Source: Nitrospinota bacterium
GTDB taxonomy: Bacteria > Nitrospinota > Nitrospinia > UBA9942 > JAHJSF01
Direction of reading: 5' to 3'
NCBI GenBank assembly: GCA_018830405.1
Contig: JAHJSF010000136.1
Coordinates: forward strand, 1-12,089
Length of the DNA: 12,089 nt
Every line of letters begins with the position of its first letter. Within the stretch, counting starts at the first letter, position 1. Under the pieces are notes generated by a model. The model saw nothing but the letters and a program-made list of their open reading frames with translations. It made no database searches and was not told the DNA's origin. The translations under genes and the position numbers were made by a program. This document shows, piece by piece, positions 4,418 to 12,089 of this stretch.

Positions 4418-4458
4418 AAGGTCTCCTGCGTCTCCTAAAAGAAGAGCAAACATAGTGT

Positions 4459-4615
4459 TTAGTTGTATAATTCTGCGTCAGTATCAAGACCGAGAATTTG
4501 GCGCGGCTGGCACGAAGACAACCGCAGCCATAGCACGCACGGCCTATGGCGAGGATTGACGACAAAGCCGGGCGTGTCAAAGGCCGGTCGGCTACAGCAA
4601 AATTTATGCAATTAA
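4459..4615. repeat. Miniature palindromic repeat C, between gatB and tRNA-Glu
   Basis: The ends are imperfect inverted repeats: TTAGTTGTATAATTCTGC at 4459-4475 pairs with the reverse complement of 4597-4615 (TTAATTGCATAAATTTTGC), with three differences and one gap. A central hairpin CCATAG/CTATGG and partly palindromic flanks (GCACGAAGACAACCGCAG against the other arm) give the whole 157-bp unit a long imperfect stem. The interior resembles the ACGAAG-CAACGCAG stretch of repeat E on its reverse strand. A frame of 82 codons crosses it on the minus strand but matches no recognisable protein. Confidence 0.55.
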
Positions 4616-4624
4616 GCACAAGAG

Positions 4625-4699
4625 CGTCCCCAAGGGGATTTGAACCCCTGTCGCCGCCGTGAAAGGGCGGTGTCCTGGGCCTGACTAGACGATGGGGAC
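4625..4699 (-). tRNA. tRNA-Glu (UUC)
   Basis: Read on the minus strand, the acceptor stem GTCCCCA pairs perfectly with TGGGGAC, followed by discriminator G at 4625. The anticodon stem is CCGCC/GGCGG around the loop CTTTCAC, giving anticodon TTC. The T arm is GGGGTTCAAATCCCC. The gene is 75 bases long, normal for tRNA-Glu, and CCA is not encoded. It lies downstream of tRNA-Lys on the same strand, with a repeat between them, and is probably on the same transcript. Its product, once charged with Glu, is also the natural counterpart of the GatCAB pathway encoded next door, though the adjacency may be chance. Confidence 0.95.
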
Positions 4700-4816: not shown

Positions 4817-4825
4817 ATAATAAAG

Positions 4826-4898
4826 TGAGCCGCCTCGGGATCGAACCGAGGACAACCGCCTTAAAAGGGCGATGCTCTACCAACTGAGCTAGCGGCTC
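4826..4898 (-). tRNA. tRNA-Lys (UUU)
   Basis: On the minus strand the acceptor stem GAGCCGC pairs with GCGGCTC, with discriminator A. The D arm contains AGCTCAGTTGGTAGAGC. The anticodon loop CTTTTAA sits between TCGCC and GGCGG (one G-T pair), giving anticodon TTT. The T arm is CTCGGTTCGATCCCGAG. The gene is 73 bases without an encoded CCA. It is the first gene behind the promoter at 4918-4947. Confidence 0.96.
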
Positions 4899-4917
4899 AT
4901 AAATTCAACAGCCCATC

Positions 4918-4947
4918 ATTGTATTTCATTGACGTTTGCTAAGTCAA
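4918..4947 (-). promoter_or_regulatory. sigma70-type promoter for the tRNA-Lys/tRNA-Glu unit
   Basis: On the minus strand, TTGACT (4942-4947) and TACAAT (4918-4923) are separated by 18 bases; each hexamer matches the consensus at five of six positions. A GC-rich stretch (GATGGGC) follows the -10 box, as is common for stable-RNA promoters under stringent control. The -10 box ends about 20 bases before the tRNA. The -35 region lies inside a small palindrome (CATTGAC/GTCAATG, 4928-4950). Confidence 0.65.
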
Positions 4948-4980
4948 TGAGAAACATGGGACTCTTGTAAAAAAGAGGTG

Positions 4981-5010
4981 TTGACACCGAGTAAAGGGGT
5001 GGAATAGAGT
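4981..5010 (+). promoter_or_regulatory. Possible promoter upstream of the cassette block
   Basis: A perfect TTGACA at 4981-4986 is followed, after 18 bases, by TAGAGT (5005-5010), which matches the -10 consensus at four of six positions. It points toward the plus-strand cassette gene at 5106 and could drive it in the absence of an integron Pc promoter. The -10 is weak, so this is only a candidate. The rest of 5011-5086 shows no attI, attC or gene that I can recognise. Confidence 0.35.
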
Positions 5011-5086
5011 CTAAAAATAGATAGGGAAGGTAAAAAGGTAACGAAAGAGCTATCTTTACCAATTTATACAGACAGTATATTTGTTG

Positions 5087-5941
5087 TTATGTTTTGGGAT
5101 CAACAATGAATGATAAAACTGAATCACAATCTTTATCTACTCCACTCTTTGGATTACTTGGTTCTCTTGGACACTCAGAATTTAGATGGTATCACCATTT
5201 TGATACAGGAACACTTTTTTGGTCACTGACAAGACTGTTCGGATTTTACCATAGGATTATTTTATCCCTTCAATTACAGAGAGAACAACGTGTTTTTCTG
5301 GATTCAGATATTGAAAGTTTTATAATTAGGATGCGTATAGTCCTTAACGATACTGCGTTTATTATCAGACAACTCCTGCCAAAAAACGAACAGGGTTTGA
5401 AAGGCCCTAAAGGAGGTGTTCATCCCAGAAATAAAGAAATGTCGATGATGGATATATTTAAGTATATTGAGAAAAATCCAAATGACTTTCACGAATTCAC
5501 TAACGTACTAAAGCAAAATAGGGATTGGATCTTCAGATTAAGAGATCAACGTGACAATATCATTCATTATAAGTCTAAAGTCATAATCTTCGAGACTGAA
5601 CCAAATATTTCATTTGCGATGCTAAATGCCGCAGGCACTGAAGTAACTGAACCCACTGAGGATGGAGGACAGCGTGTAGTTACGACTCCTATATTTGAGT
5701 ACATAAATTCCCAGACATTGTCTTTACACAAATTTTTACATGTCGATTTAGTAAGTGCTATCGAACAATATATTAAAAGAAGTGGTATGAAGTTTAGTGA
5801 AGTTGGGGAAAATCCAAGGATGACATGTATGGGAATTCCTTTATTTAAGGAAATCAATAGCATAGAAACATAACAAGTCGTTTGAGACGGATTTCTTGGG
5901 GCACCGCTTTGCTCTGCCCCAAGAAACCGCTCAACTCTGCG
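5087..5941 (+). mobile_element. Integron gene cassette (gene plus attC)
   Basis: The left boundary is G/TTATGT at 5086-5092 and the right boundary is G/TTAGCT at 5941-5947, the latter inside a well-formed attC. The 5' simple site of that attC, ACATAAC (5868-5874), is the exact reverse complement of GTTATGT at the cassette's own left end. That is expected if the 855-bp unit once closed into a circle with a fully paired R box. The gene starts only about 19 bases from the left boundary and its stop codon lies inside the attC 5' box, the usual compact cassette layout. No integron integrase or attI is in the window. Confidence 0.8.
5106..5873 (+). CDS. Cassette-borne protein with HEPN-like RDNIIH motif
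   Basis: A 255-residue, probably soluble, mostly helical protein that I cannot assign to a named family. Residues 144-154 read RLRDQRDNIIH. R149-D150-x3-H154 fits the Rx4H catalytic motif of HEPN RNases, which usually have a polar residue after the arginine. HEPN domains are common in toxins and abortive-infection proteins, so an RNase toxin or defence role is a reasonable guess but unproven. The N-terminal part contains a hydrophobic amphipathic stretch (about 38-60) with no clear signal peptide. I chose the ATG at 5106; an in-frame TTG at 5094 would add four residues and sits almost on the cassette boundary. Ribosome-binding signal is weak (GGGA). No antitoxin partner lies next to it in the same cassette. 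Base composition is AT-richer than the flanking core genes, consistent with acquisition. Confidence 0.75.
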   Translation: MNDKTESQSLSTPLFGLLGSLGHSEFRWYHHFDTGTLFWSLTRLFGFYHRIILSLQLQREQRVFLDSDIESFIIRMRIVLNDTAFIIRQLLPKNEQGLKGPKGGVHPRNKEMSMMDIFKYIEKNPNDFHEFTNVLKQNRDWIFRLRDQRDNIIHYKSKVIIFETEPNISFAMLNAAGTEVTEPTEDGGQRVVTTPIFEYINSQTLSLHKFLHVDLVSAIEQYIKRSGMKFSEVGENPRMTCMGIPLFKEINSIET

Positions 5942-5947
5942 TTAGCT
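5868..5947 (+). other. attC recombination site of an integron cassette
   Basis: The 80-bp site has all expected parts in order. They are a 5' R box ending AAC (5868-5874), an L box TTGAGACGG (5882-5890), and a 12-bp perfect stem TTTCTTGGGGCA/TGCCCCAAGAAA (5892-5903/5915-5926) with an 11-base loop. The second L box CCGCTCAA (5927-5934) and the terminal GTTAGCT (5941-5947) complete it. The first L box carries one additional A relative to the complement of the second (TTGAG-A-CGG against TTGAGCGG). This matches the extrahelical base that orients integrase recognition of the folded bottom strand. Recombination would cut between G5941 and T5942. Confidence 0.88.
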
Positions 5948-5990
5948 CCTTCCTTTAGGATAATGTGTTAAGAAAGAACATTTGCAGACT

Positions 5991-7025
5991 ATGAGCATTT
6001 ACGACCAAAGAGACAAGCCAGCATATGGATTATTAAAAACTGAACCTCACTACTCCAAGAATCAAAATATATTGAAGTGGTGGAATTCAGATTTGGACAA
6101 AGTATTAGTTTCTCAAATTTTGCGCTGGCAGTGGGTATGGTATTGGGGTATCACTGATGAAATAGTTAAACACACAACACCAGAAATAATTGAAAACTGG
6201 AAAAAAACTGACCCTCTTTGTTCAAAATACGCATGGTACAACATATTGATGAATTTTGCCGCAACACGAGCCGAGCAATTAGACTTTACAAAGGCAATTC
6301 GGAATCCACAAAAGAAAACATGCCTTTTGTGCAAGAATCATTTCACTGAAGACTCTTTGCCAATGCCATTAATTGAAAGGCTATGTATTGATAAACTGGA
6401 TTTTTGCGCTCCTTGTCTCAGAGATACAATCCTTCAAGGAACTGGTAATGACGCTTTACCTGAGAAGGATATACTTAAATATCTTCAAGATTTAGCATTA
6501 CTGATAGGACGCGTACCCACTCAAAATTTTGGTGAAGGTATCACAGATTTAAGAGAGATGAACAATAATGAAAGATTGGCTTTTTTAGAACTTCTGAGAA
6601 ATAAGCCTACCGTTGGACGCGTGAAATCAGCATTTAGTTCTTGGCTTAATGCACTTATACAAGCAGGCGTACTTGAAGATGGGACAAGGAAAACCAGCAG
6701 AGGCATTCACAGCATAGCAAAAGACGGTCACGTTTGTCTTTCGCTGGGAGAGAAAACGATTGATGATTACCTATCTTCACATGGTATTAATCACGACAAG
6801 GAGCCAAGATACCCAGAAGGCAATTATCGGGGCGACTTCAAAATTGGAACAACCTTTATTGAATATTTTGGACTTACCGGGAATCCTGACTATGACGCAA
6901 AAACAAAAGAAAAGATTCGATTATGCAAGAAACACAATATTGTGCTTGTGGCGATTTACCCACAGGACTTGGTAAGTCAACAAAAAATAGAAAGCAAATT
7001 ATCGGCATTGATTACAAAGGCATAA
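5991..7025 (+). CDS. Zinc-finger / endonuclease-associated-repeat / PD-(D/E)xK (Vsr-like) nuclease
   Basis: A 344-residue protein built from four parts. Residues 1-105 are an aromatic-rich N-terminal region of unknown role. Residues 111-142 hold two CxxC pairs (C111/C114 and C139/C142), a probable zinc-binding finger. Residues about 160-230 resemble the repeat found next to HNH and homing endonucleases (LGRVPTQ; later FSSWLNALIQAGVL), usually DNA binding. Residues about 250-340 look like a Vsr/EDxHD-type PD-(D/E)xK fold: E254 in LGEKTIDDYL, D282 in GDF, E291 in IEYFGL, then a lysine-rich helix and LVAIYPQDL. Probably a DNA endonuclease, for restriction, repair or mobility; no methyltransferase partner is present. 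The ATG at 5991 is chosen; an in-frame TTG at 5982 adds three residues. It lies right behind the attC, so it occupies the position of a second cassette. Confidence 0.75.
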   Translation: MSIYDQRDKPAYGLLKTEPHYSKNQNILKWWNSDLDKVLVSQILRWQWVWYWGITDEIVKHTTPEIIENWKKTDPLCSKYAWYNILMNFAATRAEQLDFTKAIRNPQKKTCLLCKNHFTEDSLPMPLIERLCIDKLDFCAPCLRDTILQGTGNDALPEKDILKYLQDLALLIGRVPTQNFGEGITDLREMNNNERLAFLELLRNKPTVGRVKSAFSSWLNALIQAGVLEDGTRKTSRGIHSIAKDGHVCLSLGEKTIDDYLSSHGINHDKEPRYPEGNYRGDFKIGTTFIEYFGLTGNPDYDAKTKEKIRLCKKHNIVLVAIYPQDLVSQQKIESKLSALITKA

Positions 7026-7152
7026 GGTAAATTCATGAGCAATCAATCAAACTTCAACGTTATGTATGGTTAACGGCAAAACGGTATCTATCCCCCTCGC
7101 CAGGGCGCGTGAACGCTACCCAAACGAAGTCGAAAATATGGAAATAGCATGG

Positions 7153-7200
7153 AAAAAAGGGGACGCAACCCTTTTCCTCTTTTCCTTCTGTTTTTCTTCC
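7153..7200 (+). terminator. Possible Rho-independent terminator
   Basis: The stem AAAAGGG/CCCTTTT (7155-7161 and 7169-7175) has a 7-base loop and is followed by a long pyrimidine, T-rich stretch to about 7200. It would end transcription of the nuclease gene before the toxin-antitoxin promoter. The stem has only three G-C pairs and the T run is interrupted by C, so support is modest. Confidence 0.35.
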
Positions 7201-7213
7201 CCGAAAATAACGC

Positions 7214-7248
7214 TTGCCTGTACCATAAAGCGTGCGATAAAATGTACC
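7214..7248 (+). promoter_or_regulatory. Toxin-antitoxin promoter with TGTACC operator-like repeats
   Basis: TTGCCT (7214-7219) and TAAAAT (7238-7243) are 18 bases apart and about 30 bases before the antitoxin start. Two copies of TGTACC (7219-7224 and 7243-7248), 24 bases apart, overlap the promoter edges. YefM-family antitoxins are known to bind TGTACA-type sites, so these are candidate autoregulatory operators; binding is inferred. Confidence 0.5.
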
Positions 7249-7273
7249 AAACATATACTTAATGAGGCGCAAT

Positions 7274-7555
7274 ATGCAAAAACTAAAAATAGGGGAAGAC
7301 ATCAGATCTCTGTCAGAAGTCAGGAATGGCATGGCAAATTTTATAAAGCAGGTTCATGATACTAAAAGGCCGTTGATAATTACACAGCATGGGAAAGGAA
7401 TTGCGGTTCTTTTGGGCGCGAATGAATTTGAAGCCATGCAAGAGAAAATAGAGCTCCTCTCAGATATTCAAACCTCTCTCAATCAGTTGGAAAAGGGCTC
7501 TGGAATCAGCCATAAAGATGCGAGAGAGAAGCTATTAAAGCAAGTTTCAAAATGA
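7274..7555 (+). CDS. Phd/YefM-family antitoxin
   Basis: A 93-residue protein with the Phd/YefM layout. The N-terminal DNA-binding region is KLKIGEDIRSLSEVRNGMANFI, followed by the conserved core KRPLIITQHGKGIAVLLGANEFEAM. The C-terminal helical tail (about 60-93) would wrap the toxin. It neutralises the toxin encoded immediately downstream and likely represses their shared promoter. The ATG at 7274 is chosen because GAGG lies six bases upstream; an in-frame ATG at 7262 has no such site. Its stop overlaps the toxin start by four bases (ATGA), so the two are translationally coupled. Confidence 0.9.
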   Translation: MQKLKIGEDIRSLSEVRNGMANFIKQVHDTKRPLIITQHGKGIAVLLGANEFEAMQEKIELLSDIQTSLNQLEKGSGISHKDAREKLLKQVSK

Positions 7556-7848
7556 GAGTAATCTGGTCTCCCCTTGCTGTCGACAGGGCATCAGAAATAG
7601 CCGATTACATTGCCCGAGACAAACCATCAGCTGCGGAAAAATGGATTGATACTATATTTTCTAAAGTTGAACAGCTGGAGTCATCTCCCGAAATCGGCCG
7701 AATTCTACCTGAAATCGATAATAGCCAATTTAGGGAATTAATTTACGGCAATTACCGCATCATTTATCGTATCGAAACCAAACAAATATCCATCCTCACA
7801 ATTCGACATTGCAAACAAATATTGCCAACAGGTGAAATTAAGGGGTAA
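7552..7848 (+). CDS. RelE/ParE-family toxin
   Basis: A 98-residue basic protein typical of the ParE/plasmid-stabilisation branch of the RelE superfamily. It opens with MRVIWSPLAVDRASEIADYIARD, has the middle motif PEIGRILPEI, and contains the conserved FRELIYGNYRIIYRIE followed by ISILTIRHCKQ. ParE members poison DNA gyrase while RelE members cleave ribosomal mRNA; sequence alone does not decide which applies here. It overlaps the antitoxin by four bases and converges with rdgB, the two stop codons being about 40 bases apart. Such modules are often carried in integron arrays and stabilise them, which fits the block it lies in. Confidence 0.9.
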   Translation: MRVIWSPLAVDRASEIADYIARDKPSAAEKWIDTIFSKVEQLESSPEIGRILPEIDNSQFRELIYGNYRIIYRIETKQISILTIRHCKQILPTGEIKG

Positions 7849-7889
7849 CGGACATATTTATATCACTATCTCTGCCGCTCTATGGGCTA

Positions 7890-11113: not shown

Positions 11114-11340
11114 TATGTTTTAACCACAGATAGACACTGATTCATATAGATATTTTTTGTGTCATTCCCGTGCAAACGGGAATCCAGTCTCTTCCTTCTC
11201 CTATATTCGGAGCCTGTCCCGCACTTGATGCGGGGGTCAATCCCCCGATCAAGTCGGAGGAGGGGAACGATATTTGGGGGAGGACTTTTTAAGCGGCAAA
11301 TAGATTTGCTCGTCTTCCTTTTTGCATGATACATTCAACT
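11114..11340. repeat. Cluster of dispersed intergenic repeats
   Basis: No gene is supported here. The stretch holds an ACCACAGATAGACACTGAT unit (about 11122-11140). It also holds a perfect hairpin ATTCCCG/CGGGAAT (11164-11183) within GTCATTCCCG...GGGAATCCAG, and a second perfect hairpin CCCGCA/TGCGGG (11218-11234). All three resemble short repeats scattered in many proteobacterial genomes. On the minus strand they translate to the LDSRLHGND-type peptide typical of such repeats, which explains a spurious 73-codon frame. Confidence 0.6.
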
Positions 11341-11410
11341 TAAGTTCGGGGGAACTCCATCAAAATAAAACAAGTAATAATGTTCATATAACAAAAAGCA
11401 ATTAAAGATT

Positions 11411-11665
11411 ATGAAAAAAACGTTCCAGGAACTTCGATTATTCCTCACGACTATTATGCTTGGTGCAATCCTTGCTGTAATATTGGGAAATTTTGGGTTT
11501 TTAAACGCCGACCCCAAGATAATTGGATTACATAGAATAAGAAAAGCCCCAGAGATAGACGATGTCAAAGTATTTATTACTGTTATTCTCCCATATCTTG
11601 TGGTTCTGGCTTTTAGGCTTGTACATTCTATAAAAAACCAACTGAATAATCAGAACAAAGAATAA
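11411..11665 (+). CDS. Small two-helix membrane protein, hypothetical
   Basis: An 84-residue protein of unknown family. Two hydrophobic segments are visible (about residues 10-31, LFLTTIMLGAILAVILGNFGFL, and about 53-70, VKVFITVILPYLVVLAFR), joined by a charged loop. It ends in a polar basic tail (KNQLNNQNKE), suggesting an inner-membrane hairpin with cytoplasmic ends. The ribosome-binding signal is weak. A minus-strand frame over the same bases (11335-11568) is less convincing because it lacks this regular topology. Local composition is AT-rich compared with the operon to its left. Confidence 0.6.
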   Translation: MKKTFQELRLFLTTIMLGAILAVILGNFGFLNADPKIIGLHRIRKAPEIDDVKVFITVILPYLVVLAFRLVHSIKNQLNNQNKE

Positions 11666-11751
11666 TCAATAAAATATAGAATAGAAATAGGGTGGAAATT
11701 TTATTGCTATTTTTATGAGATGAGTAGTTTCATTGGAGAGGATGGGATGCC

Positions 11752-12057
11752 ATGATTGGGGGTTTGTTATCAATCTCTATTGCTTTTGGCTGTGGGCTTG
11801 TGCTTATGAGCTTTAGTGAAATGAATCTATTGCCGCCTGAAGTAATGGCACGCGTTGGATGGTCAATTATTGCATTTTCTATTCTGGGCTACTGCCTAAA
11901 AACTTTGTTTGAGAAGTCAAAAAAGTTGCAGGAGACAACATTTAAGATAAAAGGCTCATCGCGTCTTAGTGTGGGTAAAATGATGAACTTTATGGGGTAT
12001 AACGTGTTATTAAACAAAGAGAAAAGAGCTTTTAAAAGGGGTAAAAAATCGGTATGA
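11752..12057 (+). CDS. Small membrane protein, hypothetical
   Basis: A 101-residue protein of unknown family. It has two predicted membrane segments (about residues 2-21, GLLSISIAFGCGLVLMSF, and about 34-52, VGWSIIAFSILGYCLKTLF). A strongly basic C-terminal half (KSKKLQ, KEKRAFKRGKKS) follows and would lie in the cytoplasm. A purine-rich GGAGAGGATGGG precedes the ATG, though slightly far away. Its TGA stop overlaps the ATG of the next gene by four bases, indicating coupled translation. Confidence 0.65.
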   Translation: MIGGLLSISIAFGCGLVLMSFSEMNLLPPEVMARVGWSIIAFSILGYCLKTLFEKSKKLQETTFKIKGSSRLSVGKMMNFMGYNVLLNKEKRAFKRGKKSV

Positions 12058-12089
12058 TTTACGGATGGGAAAAAACAGACGATTACTGG
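12054..12089 (+). CDS. Start of a gene cut by the window edge
   Basis: An ATG overlaps the stop of the preceding gene (ATGA at 12054-12057) and the frame stays open for the remaining 12 codons, MIYGWEKTDDYW. The overlap is the main support; the fragment is too short to identify. Confidence 0.45.
   Translation, partial: MIYGWEKTDDYW

Follow-up and report, generated by a model that had tools for sequence, protein, structure and literature searches.

The window analysed here, a 12,089-bp contig of a Nitrospinota bacterium, contains an integron gene cassette of 855 bp (5087..5941, +) that ends in an attC site and lies in a housekeeping region. It probably represents a SALIN, i.e. a single cassette inserted by an integron integrase (IntI) acting in trans at a putative attG-type site distinct from attI.

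The attC site and the limits of the cassette

The attC site is 80 nt long (5868..5947, +) and was delineated on the basis of its structure, its fold and covariance-model matches. Its R'' box (ACATAAC, 5868..5874, +) and R' box (GTTAGCT, 5941..5947, +) conform to the nnnnAAC...GTTnnnn pattern, where everything from 5942 on is part of either the target or a following cassette. The L'' box (GTTTGAG, 5880..5886, +) pairs with the L' box (CTCAAC, 5930..5935, +) as GTT[T]GAG, leaving T5883 extra-helical at a position that agrees with that of aadA2-type attCs. Spacers separate R'' from L'' and L' from R' (TCTGC for the latter), and two more unpaired bases, A5887 and A5891, are found on the same arm as T5883. 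The variable terminal stem (5892..5926, +) consists of a perfect 12-bp stem (5892-5903/5915-5926) and an 11-nt loop. As single-stranded DNA, the bottom strand forms a stable, imperfect hairpin of -21.2 kcal/mol, and 200 shuffled sequences all folded less well (z -5.6). In the minimum-energy fold, TTGAG pairs with CTCAA, one base off the canonical register, in which T5883 is extruded.

An Rfam search yielded no match to an attC family, and hence we built a covariance model, R1, with 16 attCs taken from integrons on public plasmids. They were picked by structure, the long ones were trimmed in the middle, and all were then aligned; the window attC was left out of this seed. With filters off, R1 returned a single match in the 12,089 bases of the window (5872-5943, E 0.017). 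Searching the whole genome (1.42 Mb), it matched 5868-5947 at full length (28.4 bits, E 0.0026), the second of three clear matches; these E-values are only rough because the calibration was short. A second model, R2, derived from 47 R1 matches and trained with the window attC included, scores the site at 41 bits. The original prediction had placed an attC with R boxes, L boxes, an extra base and a 12-bp stem at 5868-5947, and had proposed the bottom-strand fold and an attC model search as checks. Every feature is found where it was predicted, and both checks, the second with our home-made R1, confirm a genuine attC.

The R'' box is the exact reverse complement of GTTATGT at the left junction (5086..5092, +), i.e. 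of the R' half that a circular cassette would carry. This complementarity, part of the same prediction, even extends to 11 nt (5084-5094, TTGTTATGTTT; 5866-5876, AAACATAACAA). As R'' is thus complementary to the left junction G|TTxxxx, 5087-5941 corresponds to one cassette, with G|TT crossovers at 5086/5087 and 5941/5942. According to a first-order Markov model, the probability of GTTATGT occurring by chance at most 100 nt upstream is 0.006, and matching left junctions were found for 12 of 40 attCs of the lineage, versus 5.8% for mismatched R boxes. The cassette has a GC content of 36%, compared with 49-50% for gatB, rdgB and rph. Its identification as an integron gene cassette, as first proposed, is therefore borne out by the structure, covariance-model and junction tests.

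The cassette holds one orphan AT-rich ORF (ORF1; 5094..5873, +), which codes for 259 residues from a TTG at 5094, with an ATG at 5106, and has its TAA stop inside R''. ORF1 belongs to no family above cut-off in Pfam, PADLOC or NCBIfam, and no homologues were found in the other 76 genomes of the class, in genome_contigs, in plasmids or in viral contigs. It harbours an Rx4H motif (RDNIIH) resembling that of HEPN RNases. Its predicted structure (mean pLDDT of 37) is too poor to lend support to a HEPN-like function, which stays a guess based on this motif resemblance. An ORF on another contig of the genome (C150) has an Rx4H motif as well. A weak promoter-like sequence, TTGACA-18-TAGAGT (4981..5010, +), is present ~75 nt upstream of the cassette, and promoter-like sites in this region are no more frequent than in shuffled sequences.

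Genomic surroundings, integrase and attI-like copies

To its left, the cassette is flanked by tRNA-Lys (4825-4898, -), tRNA-Glu (4624-4699, -) and gatB. On the right are ORF2 (5982..7025, +; 347 residues), a PhdYefM/ParE toxin-antitoxin (TA) pair adjoining the insert and identified by family match (7262..7848, +), and then rdgB, rph and murI. The C-terminal part of ORF2 resembles PD-(D/E)XK proteins of PADLOC (PDC-S69 and HEAT_CxxC_PD-DEXK); an HNH_repeat match falls below the cut-off, and viral contigs contain no homologues of ORF2. ORF2 and the TA pair have a foreign-looking composition (38-40% GC). The sequence AGCTAAC, the R'' expected for ORF2, is absent anywhere downstream in the contig, and hence ORF2 lies outside any intact cassette. 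A candidate second attC at ~7020-7065, ending with GTTATGT at 7059, was rejected (no stem and no model match); this second GTTATGT has no explanation, and chance is plausible.

The nearest relatives belong to the same order only, with ~50% identity between RdgB proteins. The murI-rph-rdgB genes are syntenic in four of them, none of which has ORF1, ORF2 or the TA pair nearby. As no tRNA-Lys/Glu was found next to murI-rph-rdgB in relatives of the order, the insertion region is not alignable. Among named genomes (best GatB at 62% identity), no tRNA was detected near GatB.

The 12-kb contig has no integrase gene, and all intI matches of the genome are on other contigs. Thus, the initial remark that the cassette has no integrase nearby holds for the contig and not for the genome, since contig C76 codes for a full-length integron integrase (419 bits against a cut-off of 265 for NCBIfam TIGR02249). 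This protein aligns end to end, over 312 residues, with the integron integrase of V. cholerae of solved structure, and the alignment shows that the catalytic R, K, H..R, H and Y residues are conserved. The start of the intI gene is 644 bp away from the contig end, beyond which the cassettes belonging to it would be expected. The genome (G000) is a binned genome of 1.42 Mb that is 87% complete. Integrase and cassette lie on separate contigs of this bin, and it is probable, but unproven, that they belong to the same cell.

A conserved block upstream of the C76 intI gene (L040:470-590, -) ends with CTATTAACACTG|TTA and was taken here as attI (attI-like). Copies of it were found on C123 (L150:2444-2527; 89% over 84 bp), C150 (L063:15492-15532; 90% over the last 41 bp of the block) and C167 (L151:9190-9287; 82% over 98 bp), each heading decayed cassettes without intI. 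A match on C80 (73%) was too weak to use. A truncated N-terminal IntI fragment is encoded on C83. The genome carries other lone attCs besides that of the window. In particular, a further lone cassette, on C104, shares the architecture of the one in the window and has a 10-nt junction (TTGTTAGGAG/CTCCTAACAA); its attC abuts the malQ stop codon, and just 43 bp of contig are left of the cassette.

We made several additional observations around these loci. The ORFs next to the attI-like sites of C123 (L150:2768-3493) and C167 (L151:10223-11179) match PADLOC candidate defence families, namely PDC-M03B with HIRAN and PDC-S31 with DUF2971, respectively, as ORF2 of the window does with PDC-S69. Before the C150 site, the 3' end of tRNA-Ala is duplicated ~600 bp downstream, flanking a small insert (L063:14715-15427). 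In the window itself, 11286-11384 resembles the sequence immediately upstream of the C123 attI-like site (L150:2336-2428; 72% similarity over ~99 bp). The two sequences have GCATGATACATTCA in common, which is also present at the broken end of the C83 IntI fragment, and two orphan AT-rich ORFs follow at 11411-12057 of the window; this may be another integron relic. The final 137 bp of the window (11953-12089) recur unchanged at the end of contig C71, and hence both contigs stop in the same repeat. Lastly, a 166-bp intergenic stretch (4454-4619) recurs on C83 (93%) and in several other places of the genome (72-76%).

Origin of the lone cassette

A CALIN by current definition needs at least two attCs. 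The 12-kb contig contains exactly one attC, with no second site even with the R1 filters off, and no intI nearby; this is the definition of a SALIN, and neither two or more clustered attCs, as in a CALIN, nor an intI and an attI beside an array, as in a complete integron, were found. The original prediction had offered two readings, a CALIN or a single insertion at a secondary G/TT site. The latter fits better, because there is one attC only, no R'' for the next ORF and no attI-like sequence in the window. A single insertion is further supported by the fold, the independent model, the 11-nt junction and the ORF stop inside R'', as well as by the foreign composition, the lack of a homologue in the class, the full-length IntI and the lone cassette of C104.

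Most demonstrations of cassette insertion outside integrons have used laboratory integrases in E. coli. In the mechanism that we propose, a circular copy of the cassette would have entered the intergenic region next to tRNA-Lys at a G|TT that is not part of an attI. Its attC folds as single-stranded DNA, whose bottom strand an integron integrase recombines at G|TT. The recombinase was probably supplied in trans by an IntI, for instance the intact C76 enzyme of the same genome. We infer that IntI carried out the insertion, that its target was an attG site and that the window attC is still active. It is established that IntI recombines the folded bottom strand of attC and can insert cassettes at chromosomal attG sites (Loot et al. 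2024, as cited in PMC12901181 and PMC12444791).

The main alternative, which we regard as rather unlikely, is that the cassette is the relic of a larger integron or CALIN whose attI, intI and other attCs were deleted. ORF1 would then be the last intact cassette, and ORF2 and perhaps the TA pair would be decayed ones. The downstream segment (5942-7848) is also AT-rich, and it is gene-poor in the relatives, so that a longer array may have existed, with the cassette as its remaining edge. The foreign composition of ORF2 and of the TA pair is consistent with such an origin, TA pairs are common cassette cargo, and at three other loci of this genome (C123, C150 and C167) decaying cassettes that lack intI follow an attI-like copy. 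However, none of the attI-like sequences of the genome occurs in the window, the search with filters off revealed no other attC, ORF2 has no complementary R'', and the left flank (4900-5086) is devoid of attC. It is very improbable that the cassette was a passenger of some other mobile element that placed the whole block between tRNA-Lys and rdgB: the block (4900-7850) adjoins tRNA genes, is AT-rich and contains a TA pair, but no direct repeat of a tRNA end, integrase or transposase was seen in it. Finally, a reading of the hairpin as an ordinary terminator or fortuitous palindrome beside an unrelated ORF is largely refuted, as the hairpin, although directly 3' of the ORF stop, has no T tract and no match in a terminator scan, is recognized by an independent attC model, and has R and L boxes, an extra-helical base and a matching left junction that would be left unaccounted for.

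Interpreted as a single insertion, the lone cassette belongs to an already known kind of element. Like SALINs (IntegronFinder with a calin-threshold of 1), it has one attC, one cassette gene and no adjacent intI or attI; the differences are that an integrase is present elsewhere in the same genome and that the order has many such sites. It resembles CALINs in having an attC without a nearby intI but differs from them in that this attC is single. The order of the boxes, their spacing and the extra base are the same as in cassettes of class 1 integrons (blaIMP, aadA2), and the 12-mer TAACAAGTCGTT is common to the blaIMP attC and that of the window; in contrast, the stem and the gene are different, and there is no platform. 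The location, a G|TT of the chromosome that is in neither attI nor attC, is reminiscent of attG insertions, which, as far as Loot et al. 2024 (Nat Microbiol) is cited in PMC12901181 and PMC12444791, are known from E. coli experiments and genome surveys, whereas here the insertion is deduced from sequence in an uncultured lineage.

Dispersed attC sites in the order

Among 77 genomes of the class, R1 matches (E 0.02) are present in all seven genomes of the order, versus 5 of the 70 others (Fisher p 3e-7, with genomes treated as unrelated). The paired columns of R2 covary strongly, with a covariation score of 0.37 versus 0.04-0.10 when slid, for an alignment fitted to the structure, which favours the score. 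In searches with filters, R2 identified 84 attCs on 63 contigs in the seven genomes, with 46 of these contigs having one only. Individual genomes (G000-G006) have 5-21 attCs on 5-15 contigs, most of them single-attC contigs. Full integrases are encoded in 7 of the 77 genomes, within the order in G000 and G001 only, and G002 has a degraded copy. In G004 and G006, two left flanks have in common a promoter-like unit (TTGACT..TATAAT) and, after it, an identical junction.

Several attCs of the order are no more than a few hundred bases away from a contig end, and draft genomes inflate the counts of integrase-less clusters, since arrays break assemblies (PMC9024848). The window attC is free of this artefact, because it is 5.9-6.1 kb from both contig ends, with housekeeping genes on either side.

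At five loci of other genomes of the order (L209, L210, L211, L221 and L227, in G005, G001 and G003), the attC runs straight into G|TTCTCC, which continues as CTTCGC or CTCCGC(TTCGCTCAGGG) in four of them. A palindromic repeat thus seems to be where arrays terminate or become inserted.

As similar scattered cassettes are found in every sampled genome of the order, its integron machinery seems to spread genes, dispersing them around the genome rather than holding them in one array. We tentatively raise the possibility, itself unlikely, that the integron is a distributed system in this order, with an IntI (one in this genome) acting in trans on many scattered promoter-bearing attI-like and attG sites that, in place of one long array, each hold one or a few cassettes with defence-like genes. 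The dispersal across the order is what makes the case interesting, with the reservation that the assemblies are fragmented. The window provides a clean natural case of a single cassette in a deep uncultured lineage with an intact integrase and several attI copies, and hence concrete, testable junctions. If the scatter of attCs across the order survives long-read assembly, integrons in this lineage would be shaping the chromosome as a whole and not one locus.
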